A DNA stretch of 64,000 bases. Origin: Schizochytrium sp. TIO01 (lineage: Eukaryota; Sar; Bigyra; Thraustochytrida; Thraustochytriidae). Where the stretch lies: NCBI GenBank assembly GCA_004764695.1, contig SMSO01000035.1:556001-620000 (forward strand). The letters are read 5' to 3'. Below the pieces are notes generated by a model, which had not been told where the DNA came from, did not search any database, and saw only the letters and a list, made by a program, of their open reading frames with translations. Below, one piece after another: positions 8,065 through 50,765 of this stretch. The first letter of the stretch is position 1; every line of letters begins with the position of its first letter. Made by a program: the position numbers and the translations under genes.

Positions 8065-8162
<98 letters not shown>
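8065..8162. repeat. TTGA tetranucleotide microsatellite
   Basis: About 24 uninterrupted copies of TTGA/GATT run over 98 bases. No gene overlaps it. Confidence 0.98.
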
Positions 8163-8260: not shown

Positions 8261-8353
8261 TACGTAGGTATGTAGGTACGTAGGTACGTAGGTACGTAGG
8301 TACGTAGGTACGTAGGTACGTAGGTGCGTAGGTGCGTAGATGCGTAGGTAGGT
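8261..8353. repeat. TACGTAGG octamer tandem repeat
   Basis: Between 11 and 12 copies of TACGTAGG lie in tandem, with single-base variants TATG and TGCG in the first and last copies. The unit is related to the TAGGTA words scattered through other intergenic regions of the window. Confidence 0.95.
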
Positions 8354-8789
8354 TGTTAAGCTGCTTTCAATTGCTTTTTTAAAAGTTACCCAGGTATGTA
8401 AAAGCAAAGCTCTCATAACCTAAGTCTTGAACAAAAGTGATTGTTCTGGCTTGAGTTTTCCCTCAAATCAAAAGATCGAGAGAAGTGCCTTTGTCTAGTG
8501 ACAGTGGGCCTTCAAGTTCGGCGGTTCCCCAAGTAGCAACTAGACACCTACTCAAAATGTGTAGTTATTTTGGTGAGAGTTCGTTATCTCCGCTACCCCC
8601 TGTATTCAATGCTAGGAGACGGTTTCCAAAGGTTGATTTATATCATCCATTACCATTGTCAAAAACAAAATCCACATTATCACTCTCTCATTATTTAAAC
8701 TATCAAATGTGTAAAATTTGCAGCTTCCATGGCGAGGTGGAATCGGGGGTTTGAAAACTAACTCGCAACTCAAAGACAAATTTTAAATC

Positions 8790-9770
8790 AGGCCCTTGGA
8801 TATGTAGCGCTAAAGAATGCCTCTGGTGGCGTGGATATCACGATTGACTTTATGTGCGCATTTGGGTCATTTGAAAACCTTGAATGTGTTCCGAGCTTGC
8901 CGTGAATGGTACCACATTCATTGCATGTTTTGGAAGCGTAATCCTCTCTGCAAATAACGAGTTTACACCAGGGAAACGCTCGGGTTTGTGAATAAGCGCT
9001 TGACGGAAGCTTAAGTGGCCCCAATGAAAGGCGCGTCATTTGAATTGTATTGCTTCTGATCCGTCTTGTGAATTTGTTGACCATCTGGGAGGTTTCAAAT
9101 TTAGGCAAAATGATAACACGAAAGTTTTCACAAGGCAAAAGTGCAAGCTTGCGGTGAATCTTGGTAGTCGTGTTCTTGATTTTGAGGAGTGCGCAAAGGT
9201 ATTCGCGTCTCGAGGCATTTTGCCTTTTTTCTTTTGAGCCAATTTACCTCGTTGGATTCTATCGGGCGGCGACAGAGGAAAAGTATGATTTTTGCCTCTT
9301 CCGCTGTGCCCCACTTAATGGCTTGGCCATCGGCGTCGCGCATGGTCTGAAATGAGCGTATATCTGGGTCCAAGACAAGGACACTATGGTGCGCACCGGG
9401 TGCCTCATCTTCTGATTGGACCTTTTCTTCATGCAAAAGTAGAAGTAAACAATGACTCAGGCAATTCATTTGCACACGCATAGCATTGGTTACTTGGTCG
9501 GGGAACATACATCTTGATGCAGGGCCGCAACTGTGTACCTTTGGACAAGTCACAATCAAAAGCAACGCCAATGTGGTAAGCTCTTTTGGCAACGCCAAAC
9601 CATGTCTTGAGTTGAGAGAACTGGTCTTTCGCTGGATAGACACAAATTTCCCTTAAAATTACCAAATCATAATCTTTATTGGTCGTCTTACGTGCCTTTA
9701 CGCGCGCTCTCTTCCTCCTCGCTACGGCGTTGCCGTCTATTCTGCGCTGCTCGTTTTTCGTGATGCAAGA
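8790..9770 (-). pseudogene. TnpB/Fanzor-type RuvC nuclease, multiply frameshifted
   Basis: Family landmarks appear in the correct order but in different frames. The N-terminal segment REICVYPAKDQFSQLKTWFG (about 9645-9585) matches the opening helix region of TnpB. RuvC-I is VLDPDIRSFQT, with the acidic residue at 9368-9370. RuvC-II is VIILPKFETSQM, with the Glu codon at 9094-9096, followed by NKFTRRIRS. Next is the zinc finger half CREDYASKTCNECG, and then a RuvC-III-like NRDIHATRGIL in the +1 frame, ending at a stop at 8810-8812. About 67 codons separate the N-terminal segment from RuvC-I, much shorter than in intact TnpB, so there is also an internal deletion. The second cysteine pair of the finger is damaged. 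At least three frameshifts are needed, so it cannot encode a working nuclease. Confidence 0.8.
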
Positions 9771-10180
9771 CGGTCATGATATTAAGGAGGTCTTTTGTGA
9801 AGGCGTCGGAGTCTCCGGCATTTGCATCTTAGCCGTATACCATAAGTTTGACATTTTTCCTTTTGAGAAGGTGTTCAAGGAGGTTGACGGCGAACCCCAC
9901 AAGCCGGTCGCGGTGCAGGACCACAACCTGGCCGACTCCGCCGCTGTCGCAGGCGTCCAATATAGCGCGCAAGCCCAGCCTTTGAAAATGACCCCACTGC
10001 CAACGTCTCTGTAGACGGCAAATGCGTCTCGATATGCATGCTGGAGACCACCAACCTGGCGTTTGAAATATTTTTTCTGCTTGACAAAGGACAGTCTGGC
10101 GTAGATAATGGTACAGGCAAATGTTGCGTTGCTCGCGGCTGCCGGAACCGCAGCTACAGATGCGCCCAACATAGACACTT
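9688..10180 (-). pseudogene. IS607-family serine recombinase TnpA, frameshifted
   Basis: The resolvase domain is split between two frames. The first part reads IIYARLSFVKQKKYFKRQV, then DVGSGVIFK, matching the catalytic-serine strand (YARVSS in the family) and the DVGSG motif. Near 9980 the frame changes and continues GLRAILDACDSGG, VVVLHRDRLVGFAVNLLEHL and LMVYG; the HRDRL motif is typical of IS607 recombinases. A stop at 9826-9828 interrupts this frame, after which it resumes with DLLNIMTVLHHEKRAAQNRR and a basic/acidic tail to a stop at 9688-9690. The MerR-like helix-turn-helix expected at the N-terminus is not recognisable upstream. The motif order and the partner nuclease make the identification secure despite decay. 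Confidence 0.82.
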
Positions 10181-10200
10181 GCTTGTATGCGATTGCCCAC

Positions 10201-10703
10201 GGAAAAGGACCTAAAGAGTTCTTCTTAATATACCAAACCTCAGGTTGAAGTTCTTTACTGGCCTCTATTGAAGATCTGCTTTACTTGTAGTGCTTGAGCT
10301 CGGTGGTTCCTTGGCCATGCCATTTTATTACCTGACCTCCACTCCTTAACTGAGACCTTAATAATTATAATATGTAATTTTTATATGAAATAGTCACAAC
10401 CATTTAATTATTATATAAGTTTTACCCTTTTCGTAAGAAGGAACTACTACCCTATAGGTATTATCCGTAATCAAAAAATTACGTCATTTACAGTCAACAA
10501 GGTTTATTATGTTTATCATTTATTATGAGAAGCCCAGCCTGAACAGGTTGAACCTCCGCAGTACGTGGGAAAGCGTGAATAACCAAAGGTACAATCGCGT
10601 AGAAACCAATTTAAGTTCTGATTATCCTTTCCTCTCAAATCCCTTCGTCTCTATTGAAAGAAATAGGAAACATAGAAGAAGAGGACTGTACGGTTATCTT
10701 ACC
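10201..10703. other. Spacer upstream of the LCAT-like gene
   Basis: About 500 bases lie between the transposon relic and the LCAT start. The frame is open from an ATG at 10509, but residues encoded before 10704 look random and would bury the signal peptide, so I treat that part as 5' leader. The first 130 bases may hold the eroded N-terminus of the recombinase. Confidence 0.45.
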
Positions 10704-40712: not shown

Positions 40713-43700
40713 TTAGTAAGCGTTATGAGGAGACGTTACTGCGTTAGGAAGCCTTGGAATCTTGATGGAACTCTCAGACATAGTGTTAAGGGAATCGTCA
40801 ACAGCTTGAGAGGATTCTTCAACAATCGCAACGAACTCTTCTTCGAGTTCTCGAGGCTTGAAGTCAAGGATGAAAGAGCTTAATAGCTCCTCTCTTGTCG
40901 AAGAAGCTTTCGCAAGCGTGAAATTGATGGTATCTTGAAGTATGTCAGCAAAAGTAGCAAATTGCAACCTCCGATGTTCCATCAGGTCAGAATTTCCATT
41001 GGATGGCATAATACTTTCTGCAAGTGCTGCAATAGCGTTATCACCATGCAAAAGGCCATTGATTACAGCCATAACATGCACTCCGCAGTCATAGCCATTT
41101 TCTTGATGACCAGACAATTTCTTGACTGACCAGTTAGATTCATCCAACTCCAGCTGTCGGAGAATGCTCTTATTCCTTTCGTCATGACGACCATCATCAC
41201 TGTTTTTGAGAGGGTCATAAGAATAGAGAGTTTTATCCTCAACACACAGCATCACCAAGGTCCAATGGCTCTGAGCTAAAAGGGGCATCATGATTCTCTT
41301 TACATGGGGAGGGAATAGCAGAGTGGGTAATGAATTACTATTCTTGAACTTGACAAATTCACGTTGCTCGTGAGAACTCTTGAAAAATTTTCTCAAGGCT
41401 GTATCCAAGTCCTCCTTAATACTTGTGTGGCGAAAAGATGTAAAGAAAACCGTCTCGCGACGTCGTTCTTCAACGCTCACCTGTTTCACCTGAAGCATTT
41501 GCAAGTAAAGATCCATCAAAAAGTTTGAGACGCACTTTGTAGGAGATACTGAGCTCGAGCTCATCATTGCATGGTCAAGCAAGAGTTTCAACTGAATATC
41601 AGACTTGACACATCCTTGGGTACGTATCTGAGGAAATTCTGGCAAAGAAACTGGCAAAAGGTCACTCGTATGAAGCATATCAGCCATCTTCTTTAAGATC
41701 ACTACATAGTCATCCCTAAGAGATTTCTCAGCAGGTGACATGTTGCTGTCTCTGATAGGAGACAAATAAGAAGGATAATTCTTAAACATGTGCCGCGGTA
41801 GCTTTAGTAGCTCATCCTCTCGCCAAATTTTGATCTCTCCGTCGCAAGAGCCATTGGATGGCGCATGAACCTTTGAACGACGGTGGAGGCATCTACTACA
41901 AAAATATCGATGGTTTAGCTTCGAGGAACATCGCCAAGACTTCCCGTGTATGAGAACATCCCGGAGATCAAGAGGATCAGCAACACCAGCAGGACGAGCC
42001 CTGTGTAAGTCAACCCAGGGAGCGTAAGGAGAAACCCCCGGTGAACAGTCAAGAGCAACTGCACAGTCATCACGTTTGCCTAAATGAGAACTTCTGCCAA
42101 GCAACTCTAAAAGTACTTCATGTTGATAACCCGACTCGCTGCGGCGCAAAGACTCTTGAAGAGCGGCCGCCTGTTCTGAGCTAAGCGATATTAACGGGGG
42201 TTTCTCGAGCGTCCTCAAGTCAATCGGCCTTGCACCAGAACGTAAAAAGGCGGATTCCACCTTTGCATGGCACTGGCTTGCTTCGTAGGGGATTTGTGAT
42301 TGCACCCTGCACTTGCGTATCATATCGCGAATATTCCTTTCGCTCTTCTCGGTCACATCGGTGGGTTTGATATCAGGGATGATGCCTTTAAGAAGAGATG
42401 GCTGGCGTACGAATGAGTTCCATAAATGTGTAAATACTCGTGCACTTTTAGTGCTGCCAGCTGATGCCTCAAGAGTAAAGCCATACTCTCTAAGAAGAGT
42501 TGTGAAGAGTTTTCGCTCATTTCTCTCTGCAACACTGAGATTAGGACCACTAGGAAATGGCGTCGTTGGCTTCAAGAGATACATGCCAGAAGGGCGGCTT
42601 CGCTTTGTATGCCTCTTTGCGACTTCATCAGCATCTCCGTCCTTGGGTATCGGGGCGCTAAGATTCTTCGCAGCAAAACTCGTCTCAACCTGCTTGCTAT
42701 AGGTCATCTGAGTGCATGTGCTCTTTTTGATCATGAGTTGGACAGGGCTCAACTTGAAGGCAAACCATGAGAATCTTCTTGGCGAAGAATAGGAGACATG
42801 AGCTTTAGCTGCTGCAAACGCAGACAGTATGTCGTCATCCTTAATCACGTCGGGCGGGGTTCTGGCCGGCGGAGATCGAGGTTTGCGATCTACTCTGCTC
42901 CTCGTAGGTGCAATAACGTGCCCAATTGATACCTTAAATTTTGCTTGATTTCCGATTTCTGCATCACTTGGTACTTTACTGACTTTATATTCTCCACCAG
43001 TCAACGTCATCGTCAAAACTTCAACTTGAAATAGGTGGCCAACAGCCTCTGTTATATAAGCCACAACACTGCTAAGCTGGAGCTTTTCGTTAGGCTTTGC
43101 TTTTTTACTGACTTCCTCCAAGAGCTTGATGGAAATTCCTGCACCAGCTGGAGAAGCAAGAACTTCAAGCCCCAAATTTTTCAGAATCATTTGCTTTAAT
43201 GCTTGCTTGCCTTTGACAAATTCAAGGTTGCTTATGAGCGAGCGTAATTTAGACAAGATGTCCGGCTGATTGTTATATGCCATTGCCATGAGGATAGCCC
43301 AGACTTGCTCCACAAGATTCAAAGGCTTCATTGGTGGTTCGCATTTAAGTGCCTTTTTTATATTTAGGCAACAATCCTTCACCTCAGGCACCTCTACACT
43401 ACTTGTGTAAGGGCCAACCTGGGGTGATTCTTTTTCTGACCTTGTGTTACAAATATCATTATCACCAAGAAGAGGGAGAAGTGATAGGCCCATGCTTAGG
43501 GCTGGGTCAACAGAAGCGGGTAAGACTGTCTCTGGAAAAGGTACATCATCATGAGGATAGTGGACACGAAATAAACTGTTGATACGAAGGCGATGGACCA
43601 AAGATGAGTGTAGGTCAACTCGAGGCATTTTCTTATGGATTGGATGTAACTCTGAGGCCCGGAGGCGGTTTGCCCTTAAAGCTGCATACAGTAAAATGGT

Positions 43701-46217
43701 ATCTCCTCGAAGTACACTGACACATCTGCTTCCAATCAATTCATTCAAGACTCGATGGAAACGTTCACGAGCACTAGTTCCTCTTGCTGTAATATGTTTG
43801 CCATCAGTTGTTGCTGTGTAAATGAATTCATTGAATGTAGCGTCAGGATCACTGAGGCAATCGTATTCAACATGTCTGAGCATGTTATTAAAGAATTCCA
43901 AAAGATCATCCCCTTTTGAACTATTGCTATCACAATCGGGGTTTGAAGACTTTGCCTTTGAGCGAAAAAGTCTCACAGCTCTGCGATTAGAAGGCAGTTT
44001 GCTATGTAATGTTGTACCGCGCCCTGTTCTACTTAGGAGTGCTCTTACTTCTTCTTCCAGTTTCTCTACACTTTTGTTTTTACTCCTTCTTTTGACTTTC
44101 TTAAAGAAATCTGTGCGTAAATTTTCCATAGCAGCCTCAGCGTCTGTCTCAAGAAAAGCATACAGAGTAGATGTAATGCGGATGAACAAATCATCTTTGT
44201 TTGGTATGCGACGCTCAATCTCACGACGTCGCTTTCTATTTAAATTAATCACCTCATCATCACCATCTTCTTGGATTTTCCCCTCCTCTACATCTCCGTT
44301 ATCTTCCTCGTGCTCGATTTCTTTCAGAGATTCTGAAAATAGACTTTCATTAGGGGAAAAAACTGCAGCACTCAAGCAATTAAAGAATTGTTTACGCAAA
44401 GGGTGGCTTGGAGGGACGTTCATTACATCTTTAAAGCGGTTAAGCCAATGGAAAGCATTGAGTTTGACCGGGACATTGGGCCAGATTGACTTGATTTGAC
44501 TACGAACTAAGCAACAATTATCAGTATAAATGATCTTTGGAGCATAGCCTTTTTCTCCAGCCATCTCTTTCCGATGATTATCAAAATCTTTTAGCGCAAT
44601 AAACATTTCACCAGCCAATTTTTCCCCTTCACGAAGTCCCTGGACCCAAACGATTTGATTAAATTCATTTGCAATCGTCATAATGGCTGCAAAAGGTTGA
44701 ATCACGCGAACTTTACCTTCGTCATTCCTTATTGTCACCTTTATTTGCTTTGCGAACTTAAAAGTGCAGTCAACTCGAAGAATGTTGGCTTCAGCACTTA
44801 CTATCTCACGTAGCATTGGTCTTGCCATTTCGGTGAATAAATCAGTATTTACATCATCTAAGAAAAAACGATGAAGCTGAAAACCATTGTATCCATCGGG
44901 ATTATCAAAATTACCAAATGATTCGGGGCCTTTTGACTTGTCACGAGAAGCCATGGCCTCCTTCACTTTGGTCTCTTCCTCAGTGATTTCCTGTCGTCTA
45001 GCTTTATTACGCAACTCCCGTTCTTCCTTTTCGTGAACAAGTTGCTTCACTTCACTAACTGTTAAAGAGGAACTATCCTCCCACAGTTTCTTTACAGCTT
45101 TGTGTGCCTTCTGAAGAGCAGATCTTACACGTATTGGCCTAAAGTTTTTCCCAGAAGCAATTATGGCAAAATTTTCTTTCAACCATGCATTTTGATCCTT
45201 TGACTGGACATAGTCTTCTGTCAGCATCATCACATCGGTGACAAGCATAGGCTCTCTGGATTTCGCGCGATCTTCATCAAAGCGCCAACCCACCTGACTG
45301 AGTTTGCTCTTGAGGTGTGGGGTCAAACCAGAACAACTTGTCGGCAAATCCTGCAGTTTCCACTTCGCCAAAGTACAAGCTCGTAGCTCTCGGTCATGCC
45401 GGCGTTGAGAGACAAACTCAATGTCAGCTTGACCATTGATTCGTTTCTGCCACGCAAAGAGTCCAGCTACGGTATTAGGTTCAGCTACCTTTGGTGGATG
45501 GCGTGCGATGTCAGGATCTAGATTAGCAAGGTAGTACTCCTCGCGAACCTGCTCAAAGCGACGCACATGGGCACCCAGGACACTATCAAGAGCTTGCTGT
45601 CCACACCTTACCCAGATATCATATGAGAACTTCGCCAGCGGCCTCTCAATCATATACTTCTTACGATTTATTACAAAGAAGCGGTGCCGAGTTAATTCGG
45701 GACAGGTTCTCAAGAAATCGTCTGTCGTGTTCCGGAAAGTCCTTCTACATCCGCTGTATCTGCATTGGTATTGTCGACCAACCAAAAGCCAGGTTGCCTC
45801 AAGAGCAACAACCTCGCGAGTGTCTTTAATGTCGACCCATTTACCAGTTCGATGGTCAACTGAGTGATCACAATGCGGACAGAATAGTTTATCTTGCATT
45901 TCGTGAAACATCTTTGCTGGATACCAAGTTCCAACAGCTCTAGAATAAAAGTATTCCTTATCATACCGATTAGCACGGTCCGGCTTTCGCGAAGGCCACC
46001 ACAACCAAGCTTTCTTATTACTTGTGTCAAACCGTTCACGAGCATCTCCGATCTTCATATTAGAAACCTTCATGGTGCAATCTTTAATAAATTTAATTTC
46101 GTATTCTCTAATGGACTTGCTACGACGATCTATATTAGGTTGGTCACGAGATTCATCCTCAACCTCCAGATCTGCAAACTCATCAATAGGCATGCCAATA
46201 TCCTCCTCCGTCATCAT
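40713..46217 (-). CDS. Giant DDE transposase with zinc-rich N-terminus and C-terminal Ulp1-type (C48) protease
   Basis: This is an intact frame of 1834 residues (ATG at 46217; the preceding codons reach only a GTG). The N-terminal ~250 residues carry FCPHCDHSV, YQCRYSGCRRTF and FFVINRKKYMIE, resembling the DUF6729-type zinc region found in many protist and animal repeat proteins. A MULE/Zisupton-like DDE core follows, with candidate catalytic residues Asp483 (RVDCTFKF), Asp566 (YTDNCC) and Glu818 (RGTSARERFHR). The C-terminus is a SUMO/Ulp1-like cysteine protease: HWTLVML (His1651), SYDPLK, and GYDCGVHV (Cys1711). Such proteases accompany several MULE and Zisupton-type transposases. It reads away from the piggyBac-like gene at 47616. 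The absence of stops over 5.5 kb suggests a recent or still mobile copy. The superfamily is not certain. Confidence 0.78.
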   Translation of the reverse strand: MMTEEDIGMPIDEFADLEVEDESRDQPNIDRRSKSIREYEIKFIKDCTMKVSNMKIGDARERFDTSNKKAWLWWPSRKPDRANRYDKEYFYSRAVGTWYPAKMFHEMQDKLFCPHCDHSVDHRTGKWVDIKDTREVVALEATWLLVGRQYQCRYSGCRRTFRNTTDDFLRTCPELTRHRFFVINRKKYMIERPLAKFSYDIWVRCGQQALDSVLGAHVRRFEQVREEYYLANLDPDIARHPPKVAEPNTVAGLFAWQKRINGQADIEFVSQRRHDRELRACTLAKWKLQDLPTSCSGLTPHLKSKLSQVGWRFDEDRAKSREPMLVTDVMMLTEDYVQSKDQNAWLKENFAIIASGKNFRPIRVRSALQKAHKAVKKLWEDSSSLTVSEVKQLVHEKEERELRNKARRQEITEEETKVKEAMASRDKSKGPESFGNFDNPDGYNGFQLHRFFLDDVNTDLFTEMARPMLREIVSAEANILRVDCTFKFAKQIKVTIRNDEGKVRVIQPFAAIMTIANEFNQIVWVQGLREGEKLAGEMFIALKDFDNHRKEMAGEKGYAPKIIYTDNCCLVRSQIKSIWPNVPVKLNAFHWLNRFKDVMNVPPSHPLRKQFFNCLSAAVFSPNESLFSESLKEIEHEEDNGDVEEGKIQEDGDDEVINLNRKRRREIERRIPNKDDLFIRITSTLYAFLETDAEAAMENLRTDFFKKVKRRSKNKSVEKLEEEVRALLSRTGRGTTLHSKLPSNRRAVRLFRSKAKSSNPDCDSNSSKGDDLLEFFNNMLRHVEYDCLSDPDATFNEFIYTATTDGKHITARGTSARERFHRVLNELIGSRCVSVLRGDTILLYAALRANRLRASELHPIHKKMPRVDLHSSLVHRLRINSLFRVHYPHDDVPFPETVLPASVDPALSMGLSLLPLLGDNDICNTRSEKESPQVGPYTSSVEVPEVKDCCLNIKKALKCEPPMKPLNLVEQVWAILMAMAYNNQPDILSKLRSLISNLEFVKGKQALKQMILKNLGLEVLASPAGAGISIKLLEEVSKKAKPNEKLQLSSVVAYITEAVGHLFQVEVLTMTLTGGEYKVSKVPSDAEIGNQAKFKVSIGHVIAPTRSRVDRKPRSPPARTPPDVIKDDDILSAFAAAKAHVSYSSPRRFSWFAFKLSPVQLMIKKSTCTQMTYSKQVETSFAAKNLSAPIPKDGDADEVAKRHTKRSRPSGMYLLKPTTPFPSGPNLSVAERNERKLFTTLLREYGFTLEASAGSTKSARVFTHLWNSFVRQPSLLKGIIPDIKPTDVTEKSERNIRDMIRKCRVQSQIPYEASQCHAKVESAFLRSGARPIDLRTLEKPPLISLSSEQAAALQESLRRSESGYQHEVLLELLGRSSHLGKRDDCAVALDCSPGVSPYAPWVDLHRARPAGVADPLDLRDVLIHGKSWRCSSKLNHRYFCSRCLHRRSKVHAPSNGSCDGEIKIWREDELLKLPRHMFKNYPSYLSPIRDSNMSPAEKSLRDDYVVILKKMADMLHTSDLLPVSLPEFPQIRTQGCVKSDIQLKLLLDHAMMSSSSVSPTKCVSNFLMDLYLQMLQVKQVSVEERRRETVFFTSFRHTSIKEDLDTALRKFFKSSHEQREFVKFKNSNSLPTLLFPPHVKRIMMPLLAQSHWTLVMLCVEDKTLYSYDPLKNSDDGRHDERNKSILRQLELDESNWSVKKLSGHQENGYDCGVHVMAVINGLLHGDNAIAALAESIMPSNGNSDLMEHRRLQFATFADILQDTINFTLAKASSTREELLSSFILDFKPRELEEEFVAIVEESSQAVDDSLNTMSESSIKIPRLPNAVTSPHNAY

Positions 46218-47615
46218 GATCTTCACAGAATTAATCCGTAGTTGAAGTTCTGCGAACCATCAGCTGGAGACCCAGATTGAATAAACTCGTTACTAAGTTC
46301 TTGTAATAGTAGTTGACCCAAATTCTATGCACCCCTATATCCGTTAGTTAGTATTCTATATATGAGAAACAGGATCATTATATTTGTGAGGTAAATCTTC
46401 TCCCCACTAGCCAACACGACTGTGATTAAAGCGTAGGTTCTCTCCCATTCACAGAAAGATTAATCCTTCTATTATTTTCTTCTCCCCCCTATTACACTGA
46501 TCAAAAAATCATAGTAATCTACTATTAGTTAGATAGCTTAAACTAAATTTTTCATTATAGAAAGGCCAGGACCACCCACTTCTGTCTCTTGCAGTATCAC
46601 TTAACTGGTTCTAGATAGCCAAAACGAGGACGACAATTTTTACAAACTGATTTAGCTTCCCTATATTAACATGGTCATCAATGTACAAGATAGTTTTTCG
46701 TCATATTCGTCAACATGCAAAGTAACTTGAGCCACCTTAAAAAAATACTACTTGCAGAACCCCTTTTGTTTTTGCGGAACCCCTTTTTTTACTTCTTTTT
46801 TTTTTCTCTGTACGGCATGTACAAAACAGGGGGTGTTCTGGCGAGGCTATGCGAAATTTTTCTAAACGTCCATGTTAGCATTACATGATTTCCCACTGAT
46901 ATTGTTCTGATTGAAGAAAATAGAATGTGACAGTGATGACCTGGACCGGAGACTTATCAGAACTATACCATGAAGATCTCTATTTATTTACTCCAAGTTG
47001 GGTAAAAATTATCGTTTCTAGTCCGAGATTATCAGTGTATTTTTGTTTTGTAAAACTTGGGGGTCTTACAAAACAATCACTCACAAGGATCATTCTTTTT
47101 TCTCTATGACGCTATAACCCTGGCTATTTTTGAAAGAAAAAAAAAATCGGATAAACTTTTATTTTTCCGGTAGAATATTTCAGGACTTATTACGTCCCGG
47201 TAAATATGTACCTACTTGAGTCATTGATCAATTCAACAGTCTAGCTCTGTTCGGGATGAAACTCGTTTAGTTTACCCCCCTGACCTCAACTGTCCATATA
47301 TTATCGCGTTCTCATGATTCTCCGATTGATAGTTGAGTTTAGGACCAACAATGACATTCTCAGTGGTGTTTAAGTGGTGGTTAGGTTAACAGGTACTTGA
47401 CACATGGTTGTTAGGTTCTCCCACGGTACCTGTTCTACCAGACAATTAATACTGATAAACATCAATATCTTGCGCCAGCATGTAGTGCCAGCAGTACCAA
47501 CAAAAGTACATCAGACCTTACTTCATCGTCCACTTGCTAGTCTACTTGGGATCTATCAGCACTTCCCTCAGCGAAGGGGTCCATTGGCGCTTGAGTTTAA
47601 CGTCAGCTGTGTGTC
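46218..47615. other. Spacer between two divergent transposase genes
   Basis: About 1.4 kb must contain one end of each element if they are separate. It includes a direct repeat of GAACCCCTTTT words near 46758-46790 and a GGAC...GTCC motif near 47183-47198. I found no inverted repeat or TTAA-flanked end that matches the far side of either element. Confidence 0.4.
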
Positions 47616-50600
47616 ATGTCTCTAGATGACGTCGAGAATGACAAGGACTCAATCTACGTTTCCTCTGATGAGTCTTCTTCTGATGAAGACGAGAACGATC
47701 TCTATGAGTGTTCATCGACAAGTACTCCTGGCCATGAAAACTGGACCTTTCAATCTTACTCCACTGAAGGCGCAAAGTACCACAGCAACCTATCTGGGTC
47801 TCAACTTGGCATGGACGCAGTCCAACTCAAGTACAATTGCTCAAGCGAATTAATGCTCCCCAAGGTTCAAAAAGAAAGTTCGGAGATTACTAAAAGGATT
47901 CGAAAGGTTCTTCGTGTTGACAAGAACTACAAATTTACCAGGCTTGATAGTTTCAAGATTTGTTTGCCGCCAGGCTGGGTGATTGCAGTTAAGGAATGGT
48001 TGAATAGTCTTAGCTCAAACGCATCTCCGCCATTTTCTATCACGGATCAAGATTTCCGTGCCTACCTTCTCGTTGAAATTTCTCTGCGAGTTGCAGGAAA
48101 GTCGTTCGAGGAGTGTCTTGAGGACCCACCAGGTCATTGGACTCCAGCCCATGCGGTATCCTATTCAAAAGTTCGAAAGGCAATGAGCCTGGACAAGTCC
48201 AATCGGGCAACAAAAGGGTCACGCGAGGCTAGAGTATGCTCCTCAAGTCCGATCATCCATGAAATGGGAGATGCTGCTCAGCGCCATTGGGTGAAGATGT
48301 TCTTTGTCCCTAAAGCCACTTGGATCGATCTTGATGACGACAAGCTTCCCTATGGTTCTCCTCAGTGGGAGCATTTTGGAATTCGTACTATTACAACGAA
48401 AACAAAAAAACAGAAACCCGTGATACATCTTGTGTGCTCTGCGGGTACAGGTCTGCTCCTAGTACCACGGTTAGAGACTTCCCACTCACCTGTTCATAAA
48501 ATTGTAAGCAAGGCAATAGATTCTCTGAATGAGGGGGAGTCAGGAGAAAGCCCTGATGCGTCTGTGTCTTCAGAGCTTCATGTATTCATTGATCGTGGTT
48601 ATCTGGCATTATCGAAACCTCAGGATATGGATCGTGCAACAAACATAACTCAAATTCTTCAGTCAAAGGGAGTCAAATTTCTAGGAACTTGTCGCAAGAC
48701 CTCGTCATTCCCGTTTATAGATGTTGAAGGACCAGTTCCTGCCACGCCTGTGAGGGGAAGTCAAACTATCATTAACAGGAATGGCCGTCGAAGCACCTAC
48801 ACCGCTCAAAGATACCAGAATGGCGATTTTGTTGCTGCGATGATGATGCGTCACGGTGCGGGAAAGCATAGAGTTGCACAACTCATCACGAACGACCGTT
48901 GTTTGGCTGACCAAGTTTGGAGTTACGAAGTACTTCCTGCTGGAGTAGATTGGAACTCACCAGGTGGTGTAAAGCGTGTTCCACATGCTGAGATTGAGAT
49001 AGAGCCGTGTGACATGAGTACATATAAGATGGAGGCACAAGCTAATCATAAAATTAATCTTGTGAACGCCAATATCTTCTCAATAACAATTTCCCAAAGA
49101 ACACCTGACTGGTTTATGGCTCGGCAGTTTAGAATTACAAGCACCGGTGCTTTTACCTGTATCAACTTTAAAAATGCTCCATTCGTTCATTCGGATGAGC
49201 TTATGGCCTTACACCACGATGTGAAATCGTTCGCTTGTCTCGACCCGCAACGAATTATCTCATTATTCCCCCGTCCTAATAAGCGTTCCTCTTGTTCATC
49301 CGAAGGGGCTCAGAAGCAATATAAAAGGAAGCGTCAAGGGGAGGGTCTTATTCTTGAATATACATACTGGATGCAATGTATGAACAAAGATGAGCTTATC
49401 CAAAAGTTACTTTCTTTGGATGTAGGTGCAAAGACTGATGGCAAAAAGATCGAACTAGCCAAGCGGATCGTAGACATCCTATCAAGAACTATAGATCATG
49501 AAACGGTCTCAAACGGAGAACTATCTTCCTTACAGGAAGACATACACCCTCAGCATGCATCTCAGGAGTCCACTACTCAAGACCTGCTGGAAATGAGTGA
49601 CAGTAGTGACATTGGGGACAGCTTTCCCTTGCACAATTCTGAAACGATTGATGATAACCATACATGCACTTTCGAGGAACGCCAGAAATCATTTCTTAGA
49701 ACAATCACACCAAGTTGGTTTATGAAGCCTATTCAAAATGGGTTTTCGAATCATAAAAACCCACTGGCTATGGGGATTGAAAATGAAGCAGACGTGGCGA
49801 AAGATCTTTCCAGATGGGTTAAGAAAGCAAGTTCCAATAAATTCTGTATTCTCCAGCTACGCAAATATGGTCTGGTTATTAATCGGGAAGTCCAATTTGT
49901 AGCAGACTCACCCGACGGTGCAGCTGTTCTTTTGAGGAATACAGAGCTAGAAGGAAACAATTTTGTTATAGATGATGTATTTGCCTTAGAAATCAAAACA
50001 AGTACAAATGCCAAAACTATAGATGAGTTAAAGTCTCGAGTTGCTGGTCAGAGTGCGTGGCACGAATGCAAATGTGGAACAAGTGAGTTCGAGTCGTTAG
50101 TCCCAAATCCGTCGTTTCGAACTCAGTGTATCCATCATGCAGCTACTTTAGATGTCCCTTACACCCTCCTTATATATGCCACAACTGAGGAAATCATGCA
50201 AGGAGTGCTAATCAAAGTCTCATGTGCCCAGCGCCAGGCATGGCGTGAGTATTTCAAAGCGTTGAGTGATGAATACATGGGCTTTGCTTATGGCAATCAA
50301 CTTGGTAGGTTTCCTCGTTTTGCACCAGACCAATCTCCAGACTGGGGTTATGCTGTGGATTTACACAGTGCCGAACTCGCTTTGCAGCTTTGGCGGAGGC
50401 ATAGTGACGACGTGTTGGTCAACGGAACCCCACCGCCTTGCAAACGCCTACTGCCTTTGACTGTTAGTGTCTGGAATAAGATGATGGGCGGAGTTGATAT
50501 CACTAGAAAAACTATCAATGGAGCGAGCATTCGTACTTCAAAGCTGACTCCTAATGCTTTGGTTTGTTTAACATTCATTGACTATATTTTATACAACTCG

Positions 50601-50765
50601 TTTCGAGCGTATCAGCTCCTCTCAATGGAGCATCGGAACCTCACATCGAAGTGTAAAACAATTACGGAATGGTCAATGCAACGCAAAAATCTGTGCTGCT
50701 ATAGAGGCTATCTAAGTAGTCTCGCGGAAGAAATTAGTCTCAATGGAATCCCTTTACCCATTTGA
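47616..50765 (+). CDS. piggyBac-type DDE transposase with inserted SAP-like and YqaJ-like nuclease domains
   Basis: This is a 1049-residue protein with an acidic Ser-rich N-terminus. The piggyBac (DDE_Tnp_1_7) core supplies candidate catalytic residues Asp238 (WIDLDDDKLPYG), Asp326 (VFIDRGYLAL) and Asp961 (WNKMMGGVDITRK), then FIDYILYNSFRAYQLL. The last two acids are normally about 100 residues apart, but here the gap is 635. The insert begins RTPDWFMARQFRITST (495-510), which is how YqaJ/lambda-exonuclease-like domains start. A SAP-like helix pair follows at 589-622 (MNKDELIQKLLSLDV, GKKIELAKRIVDIL). The PD-(D/E)xK motifs come next: GIENE (722, 724), SPDG (Asp767) and EIK (Glu792, Lys794). 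The transposase and nuclease signatures are both clear. The expected zinc ribbon follows in another frame. There are no internal stops. Confidence 0.85.
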   Translation: MSLDDVENDKDSIYVSSDESSSDEDENDLYECSSTSTPGHENWTFQSYSTEGAKYHSNLSGSQLGMDAVQLKYNCSSELMLPKVQKESSEITKRIRKVLRVDKNYKFTRLDSFKICLPPGWVIAVKEWLNSLSSNASPPFSITDQDFRAYLLVEISLRVAGKSFEECLEDPPGHWTPAHAVSYSKVRKAMSLDKSNRATKGSREARVCSSSPIIHEMGDAAQRHWVKMFFVPKATWIDLDDDKLPYGSPQWEHFGIRTITTKTKKQKPVIHLVCSAGTGLLLVPRLETSHSPVHKIVSKAIDSLNEGESGESPDASVSSELHVFIDRGYLALSKPQDMDRATNITQILQSKGVKFLGTCRKTSSFPFIDVEGPVPATPVRGSQTIINRNGRRSTYTAQRYQNGDFVAAMMMRHGAGKHRVAQLITNDRCLADQVWSYEVLPAGVDWNSPGGVKRVPHAEIEIEPCDMSTYKMEAQANHKINLVNANIFSITISQRTPDWFMARQFRITSTGAFTCINFKNAPFVHSDELMALHHDVKSFACLDPQRIISLFPRPNKRSSCSSEGAQKQYKRKRQGEGLILEYTYWMQCMNKDELIQKLLSLDVGAKTDGKKIELAKRIVDILSRTIDHETVSNGELSSLQEDIHPQHASQESTTQDLLEMSDSSDIGDSFPLHNSETIDDNHTCTFEERQKSFLRTITPSWFMKPIQNGFSNHKNPLAMGIENEADVAKDLSRWVKKASSNKFCILQLRKYGLVINREVQFVADSPDGAAVLLRNTELEGNNFVIDDVFALEIKTSTNAKTIDELKSRVAGQSAWHECKCGTSEFESLVPNPSFRTQCIHHAATLDVPYTLLIYATTEEIMQGVLIKVSCAQRQAWREYFKALSDEYMGFAYGNQLGRFPRFAPDQSPDWGYAVDLHSAELALQLWRRHSDDVLVNGTPPPCKRLLPLTVSVWNKMMGGVDITRKTINGASIRTSKLTPNALVCLTFIDYILYNSFRAYQLLSMEHRNLTSKCKTITEWSMQRKNLCCYRGYLSSLAEEISLNGIPLPI

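Follow-up and report, generated by a model that had tools for sequence, protein, structure and literature searches.

A broken pair of genes on the minus strand of a 64,000-nucleotide stretch of the Schizochytrium sp. TIO01 genome (contig SMSO01000035.1, positions 556,001 to 620,000; hereafter the window) raises two questions: what kind of transposon left it, and how did its two genes share their DNA? The remnant lies at window positions 8684–10434 and consists of degraded tnpA, degraded tnpB (TnpB/Fanzor) and a decayed right end, as judged against L037, an intact copy in the same genome whose proteins and DNA served as the reference. A preliminary description, made from the letters of the DNA, had called it a eukaryotic IS607-type relic with a Fanzor/TnpB gene. 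The recombinase and TnpB motifs it named are indeed on the minus strand, and the L037 proteins match the window with tblastn E values of 7e-37 (tnpA) and 4e-60 (tnpB). The best explanation of the whole, which we hold to be highly probable, is a dead copy of an IS607-type Fanzor2 element in which the tnpB frame is overprinted on tnpA.

Profile and translated comparisons bore that description out. The Pfam Resolvase model (PF00239) scores 25.8 bits on window 9700–9981, above its cut-off of 23.3, whereas the broken open reading frames (ORFs), taken one by one, score under the Pfam cut-offs, two of the five giving no match at all. The location was also correct, but the limits of 8790 to 10200 were too narrow, as DNA similarity spans 10434–9538 and 9506–8684. 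That such a likeness reflects chance, or bacterial contamination of the assembly, we can scarcely credit: against it stand the E values, some 70 related places in contigs up to 9.8 Mb long, and the setting of the relic, which is flanked by microsatellites and, on its other side, by an LCAT-like gene, much as had been described. The assembly (64.06 Mb, 37 contigs) is eukaryotic by gene content. Neither a chlorophyll a/b protein nor diaminopimelate (DAP) epimerase was found in searches of the genome, and the host is apparently a non-photosynthetic eukaryote.

Assignment of the element to a known kind, IS607/Fanzor2, is virtually certain. The TnpA of L037 scores 144.9 bits against NF033518, the NCBI IS607 model (threshold 110), and 72.5 against PF00239; MerR_1 reaches 17.1 in L044, under its cut-off of 21.6. 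In copies and relic alike tnpB lies downstream of tnpA on the same strand, and no terminal inverted repeats were seen by eye, no dedicated search having been made. The RuvC-I motif, Asp-Pro-Gly (DPG), reads IALDPGVRSF in L001; in the relic the motif reported as LDPDIRSFQT is present, with DPG decayed to DPD. The Glu of ILPKFETSQM, the stretch that had been named RuvC-II, is not in the canonical position. The Fanzor-type catalytic Glu stands six residues before the zinc finger (PMC10711439; this and all other publications are cited from parts of their text), and it is retained here, as E-SYTSKT-C in L001 and E-DYASKT-C in the window, while the canonical IS607 TnpB site, some 50 residues before the finger, is by reading a Pro (ILLPKFETS). 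A canonical IS607 TnpB was rejected on the displaced Glu, on this Pro and on a score of 62 bits against NF038280 (threshold 350). Fanzor1 was rejected as well, being carried by non-IS607 eukaryotic transposons, whereas this element holds an IS607 TnpA. The element groups with cyanobacterial pro-Fanzors with support of 99/97 in a tree where a mis-trimmed control row (L104) falls inside the pro-Fanzor clade, several controls are long-branched, and eukaryotic Fanzor2 is represented by this family alone.

The closest known counterparts are the Fanzor2 IS607-type elements of Acanthamoeba and giant viruses (Fanzor2 also occurs in Phytophthora; PMC3627910, PMC10711439). These resemble the present family in their TnpA serine recombinase joined to Fanzor2, eukaryotic host, and DPG with displaced Glu, and terminal inverted repeats are not reported in the parts consulted. 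The present family differs in its copy number, beyond the one or two Fanzor2 families per species of the published Table 1, in a putative AG rather than GG crossover, and in its long tnpA/tnpB frame overlap, of which the parts consulted make no mention. The mimivirus Fanzor2 (TnpB-like protein L79, PDB 9b0l) is the best solved relative by both sequence and fold and has the YPTKDQ block in common, but is 520 residues long as compared to 618 here; one query piece found no relatives of it in IMG/VR. Cyanobacterial pro-Fanzor IS607 elements share DPG with the displaced Glu in most of the loci for which the motif search gave a result, a related TnpA, and a tnpB frame open across most of tnpA. They differ in protein identity (26–43%), in their bacterial host and in a tnpA that is broken in several. 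Other IS607 elements (H. pylori IS607, ISXfa1 and 15 plasmid controls) share the gene order and TnpA family; H. pylori IS607 uses a GG crossover (PMC6188088), in contrast to the AG suggested here. In the plasmid controls with an annotated tnpB, the annotated genes overlap by 0–29 bases. Six control TnpBs were shown to lack the displaced Glu and the motif search was silent either way in the other nine of 15 (L093 has no annotated tnpB), so that "other IS607" is the safe name for this group.

The two genes of the relic had been described as overlapping slightly. Instead, they share about 450 bp, with tnpB-frame similarity beginning at 10120 and tnpA similarity running to 9670. In L037 tnpA occupies bases 82–810 and the tnpB frame is open from 107 onward; the +1 frame of tnpA holds no stops where 3.7 are expected (P 0.003). 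Expected numbers were obtained by shuffling synonymous codons, which preserves codon counts and not codon pairs. Relatives were collected from 31 bacterial loci (29 cyanobacterial), one viral contig and one phage; six of 32 loci without a tnpA match (L063, L065, L066, L070, L087, L090) and near-identical rows were then dropped. The 22 non-redundant elements that remain contain eight +1 stops against 71.6 expected (standard deviation 5.4), a number that none of 1,000 shuffles reached; the eight come from two Poribacteria and the viral contig. Their +2 frame has 200 stops against 196.7 expected, and the tnpA frame itself 14. From cyanobacteria to this eukaryote, the tnpB frame runs through most of tnpA in +1.

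Two sets of controls lack this depletion in +1. Fifteen plasmid IS607 elements (from 16 control regions, L108 being unused as its tnpA is unannotated) have 161 +1 stops against 170.9 expected and 174 against 211 in +2. Seventy flanking ORFs from the same contigs, called mechanically and possibly including spurious ones, have 675 against 651 in +1 and 654 against 702 in +2. A held-out sample was drawn afterwards from 194 genomes of one phylum, 15 of which gave a match at E ≤1e-40, the starting genome included. After removal of four near-duplicates and one locus without a tnpA match from 19 loci, the 14 non-redundant elements show 16 +1 stops where 57.8 are expected (a depletion matched by 0 of 1,000 shuffles), and 125 against 146 in +2. 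Fifteen of these 16 stops fall in the first 12% of tnpA; the remaining one is in L123, whose tnpB is in another frame. DPG and the displaced Glu were confirmed by motif search in six of the 14 (eight stops against 24.4). In two cyanobacterial genomes the best-matching places (five at 48% identity or more and one at 35%, partial pieces aside) have open frames of 531–616 codons, and weaker TnpB matches mostly have about 330–510, with one of 578. On a Trichormus variabilis plasmid, a stop interrupts the catalytic motif of tnpA, but the 176 codons upstream of the annotated tnpB start are still open in the tnpB frame.

Codon usage was also compared at shared TnpA residues, where the number of shared codons exceeds that of shuffles in a thinned Fanzor group (z 8.8; n = 11, highest pairwise TnpA identity 0.74). 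We rely on thinned rows; with close relatives included, the overall z is 25.7 for +1 and 19.1 for +2. The constraint peaks over TnpA residues 124–152 (z 5.5) and 158–186 (z 6.5), is weaker over 81–123 (z 3.7) and 187–205 (z 2.8), and is nil in the MerR part (z −0.3). Thirteen control elements, with L037 as ruler, give an overall z of 0.3 and 2.1 over 158–186. The two peaks correspond to TnpB residues 83–145, which include four invariant columns (two Trp, a Ser and a Leu) in 11 aligned sequences.

Several results weigh against functional overprinting. Eight of the 14 held-out elements (eight stops against 33.4) are unconfirmed as having DPG and the displaced Glu. Amino-acid identity in +1 hardly exceeds that in +2 (z 1.96 and 1.72, 46 pairs below 60% TnpA identity), no purifying selection in +1 was found among the recent eukaryotic copies, TnpB residues 1–195 are predicted to be mostly disordered, and the N-terminal extension has no sequence match to the mimivirus Fanzor2. 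Homology of the extension to that protein was rejected on this lack of a match; the fold alignment begins at model residue 88, a figure that marks no more than its outer limits. The lack of +1 selection in recent copies and the blindness of the shuffle to codon pairs would suit a reading in which codon or codon-pair bias in tnpA leaves the frame open incidentally and the extension is untranslated. So would the deficit of +2 stops relative to the shuffle, which is 7% in flanking ORFs, 18% in control IS607 and 15% in the held-out set. We nonetheless regard codon bias as improbable: the +1 depletion is 9-fold in the 22 elements and 3.6-fold in the held-out ones and is absent from the +1 frames of the 15 controls and 70 flanking ORFs, elements with a dead tnpA keep the tnpB frame open, and the synonymous constraint is uneven along tnpA and missing from its MerR part. 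The tnpB frame is kept open, part of the extension is probably constrained to judge from the codons, and we are confident that the overprinted frame is under selection.

How TnpB would be made from such an arrangement is less clear. Its translation may begin near the 5′ end of tnpA, in which case one capped mRNA could make both proteins. In 11 of the 12 eukaryotic copies examined (out of 19), the next AUG downstream of tnpA's own is a tnpB-frame one, which leaky scanning would require; short upstream AUGs are also present. We give leaky scanning in the eukaryote an even chance on these sequences. A tnpB-frame ATG occurs near the tnpA start in most elements listed, and was rejected as proof of a start codon because it can derive from the conserved Tyr-Val codons of TnpA. 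Alternatively, TnpB could lack a start codon of its own and arise by a programmed +1 frameshift early in tnpA, as a TnpA head fused to TnpB. The crowding of residual held-out stops into the first 12% of tnpA would mark a possible shift site, and several cyanobacterial elements have no tnpA-frame start codon near the expected place. A frameshift is nevertheless unlikely, as no common slippery sequence was seen by eye, and both the tnpB-frame ATG, though possibly a product of the Tyr-Val codons, and the position of the first AUG in the eukaryotic copies speak for independent initiation. The fullest version of overprinting would hold for the entire lineage that founded the Fanzors: tnpB would start near the same 5′ end as tnpA, most tnpA DNA would be read in two frames, codon constraint would point to a functional TnpB head at about residues 83–145, and leaky scanning of one capped eukaryotic mRNA would be possible, unlike in an ordinary bacterial tnpA-tnpB operon. 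We put this forward tentatively, at somewhat less than even chances.

An eLife paper states that overlap of the two ORFs is frequent in IS607 elements, with no extent given in the part consulted. The parts of Yoon 2023 (PMC10711439) consulted do not mention overlap, N-terminal, start codon or frameshift, nor do those of Bao & Jurka 2013 (PMC3627910) mention overlap. Literature searches, judged by their listings and by selected passages, turned up no report of a full tnpA/tnpB overlap. A tnpB frame preserved through tnpA in pro-Fanzors and this Fanzor2 family, and not in 15 other IS607 elements, is a lineage-specific feature, and the overlap bears on a question of Yoon 2023, namely what fitted this TnpB lineage for eukaryotes. 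If true, overprinting would be a pre-adaptation explaining why this TnpB clade alone settled there. Constructs that start TnpB at its core omit as many as about 190 residues whose translatability selection seems to maintain. Public annotation starts TnpB at the core in at least one case: the RefSeq TnpB of L129 starts at 1765, and its frame is open from 1237, with a conserved extension running upstream through a dead tnpA (1201–1765).

The relic adds one further example to a known element type, and its genome supplies a natural series from dead to intact copies. The count of about 70 related places was made by hand from several pooled searches, taking places more than ~10 kb apart. A DNA search with the relic gave at least 76 matches, itself included (best 40 of 197 candidates scored), and a protein search at least 95 (best 78 of 372 scored). 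Domain models matched TnpB 34 times and resolvase 27 times; 14 of the 34 TnpB matches are in open frames of 615–682 codons, and a fifteenth frame of 632 codons was matched in part. Our sample comprised 19 recent copies and the window region. The recent copies are 89–99% identical to L037 over aligned parts and their flanks all differ. A full tnpB (a single ORF of at least 598 codons from the first Met, reaching the tnpB end) is found in 14 of 19, a 232-codon tnpA ORF in nine and both genes whole in eight, bearing out the expectation of intact relatives elsewhere. Pooled, uncorrected ratios of nonsynonymous to synonymous polymorphism (pN/pS) are 0.37 for tnpA and 0.40 for tnpB. Judged from sequence, the family likely multiplied recently in this genome, and recent movement of copies (1–11% from L037) is likely too.

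Six of the 19 copies share a nonsense codon at tnpA position 167, and tnpB is whole in five of these. In four of the six (L041, L043, L045, L054) tnpA also contains a common insert of 310 bp, which precedes the first tnpB-frame AUG. The insert was rejected as an intron, having no GT-AG borders; it looks by eye like a nested insertion, and it contains (TAACC)n repeats. Because tnpA-dead copies have spread, TnpA probably acts in trans; gene conversion is a possible origin of the shared codon-167 stop. New copies sit inside or beside the ends of old ones at L050, L044, L053 and L010, the last with an inverted right-end fragment upstream. A right end (87%) at G000:C30:8395848-8395948, with no nearby match in the tnpB searches, is possibly a short non-autonomous copy.

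With junctions placed by hand, left flanks tend to end in C-A-G (C in 14, A in 13 and G in 17 of 18), and the first base of the right flank is A or T in all 18. Shared bases between flanks number six or fewer in 14 of 17 two-flank copies, where the null maximum is 8 among 272 mismatched pairs. Target-site duplication as a rule was rejected, these 14 having no direct repeat above the null. The flanks favour an insertion preference for C-AG|W, mostly without target duplication. Exceptions tell against it: a clean CAG is lacking at five of 18 left flanks (L037, L038, L044, L048, L055), and three of the 17 recent copies share 8, 9 and 13 bp. The longest is in L047, where a 13-bp direct repeat, AGAAGAAACAAAT, lies across the element and the left terminus is replaced; its left junction is aberrant or imprecise. 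L050 sits within the left end of an older copy. When its two flanks are joined through a single AG, the product can be aligned across the junction with other old copies (best L020, by eye), which fits an exchange over AG without duplication. The first three to four left-end bases are more variable than their surroundings: L043 and L054 differ at nine of 2,250 aligned positions (99.6% identical), yet at three of the first four.

A plausible cycle would run as follows. TnpA, which joins a MerR-like DNA-binding head to a serine recombinase, would excise the element as a circle, which would be inserted at C-AG|W by exchange over the common AG dinucleotide. Fanzor2 (TnpB), loaded with an RNA ending in the right flank, would cleave the empty site that the RNA matches, behind a CAG-like motif, and repair would restore the element. 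Mobilisation of the window copy in trans, as a non-autonomous element, is very doubtful. Both its ends are recognisable and tnpA-dead copies have multiplied, including the six with the codon-167 stop and their four insert-bearing members; but its left end lacks the CAG junction (by eye), its scaffold does not fold, and its closest DNA relative among the matches listed is 78% identical over part of its length, which marks it as old.

The guide-RNA search suggested by the preliminary description found the DNA conserved in position, with mixed results for structure. Conservation extends over the final 100 bases as far as the right end in 27 aligned copies, and is weaker in old ones. Two recent copies fold better than shuffles (z −3.6 and −3.8), and 88% of cells form a drawn, pseudoknotted structure, as compared to 33–45% when it is slid. 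On the other side, the folds of the window copy (z −0.5) and of two old copies are no better than those of shuffled sequence, scaffold covariation does not exceed that of shuffles, the automatic consensus fold has five pairs only, and no Rfam match was found in the three loci searched. Covariation was accordingly set aside as proof of a guide RNA; position and the biology of such systems suggest that one is encoded at the right end. Each copy has its own right flank and hence, if so, its own guide.

Parts of the relic and their coordinates in the window, with the basis of each assignment (ref, L037)
Feature	Position	Strand	Basis
Whole relic element (right end 8684, left end ~10434)	8684..10434	-	blastn to L037: ref 6-942 = 10434-9538 (71%), ref 1348-2205 = 9506-8684 (69%)
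Left end and 5′ leader	10324..10434	-	alignment with 19 recent copies
tnpA start-equivalent ATG	10323	-	position by eye
tnpA remains (MerR-like helix-turn-helix and serine recombinase; YARLS, DVGSG, HRDRL, HHEKR)	9670..10323	-	tblastn E 7e-37 over 10206-9670; PF00239 25.8 bits > 23.3
tnpB-frame N-extension remnant within tnpA	9977..10120	-	tblastn, 52% identity to TnpB residues 38-85
tnpB remnant: remaining N-extension, basic stretch, YPAKDQ core start	9507..9998	-	tblastn, 62% identity to TnpB 79-243
Internal deletion junction (ref 943-1347, ~405 bp of tnpB lost)	9507..9537	-	gap separating two blastn blocks
tnpB remnant with RuvC-I (DPG decayed to DPD)	9191..9505	-	tblastn, 50% identity to TnpB 371-477
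tnpB remnant: RuvC-II region, displaced Glu (E-DYASKT-C), zinc finger CNECG	8875..9210	-	tblastn, 51% identity to TnpB 477-587
tnpB C-terminus with RuvC-III NRD	8786..8866	-	tblastn, 63% identity to TnpB 592-618
Decayed guide-RNA scaffold (putative) and right end (..AATGAGAG)	8684..8779	-	aligned with 26 other right ends; fold vs shuffles z −0.5
Right flank, expected guide position	8664..8683	-	expected from right-end position and TnpB/Fanzor biology (PMC10711439, in part)

The microsatellites adjoining the relic are of TGAT and ACGTAGGT, at window 8068–8160 and 8270–8350. Elsewhere in the window, a 1,837-residue ORF at 40713–46226 on the minus strand carries a C-terminal Ulp1-type protease domain (PF02902, 44.5 bits) and DUF6729 (27.4 bits), and looks like another transposon gene. 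A 1,049-residue ORF at 47616–50765 on the plus strand has no Pfam match; read by eye, it may encode a piggyBac-like transposase.
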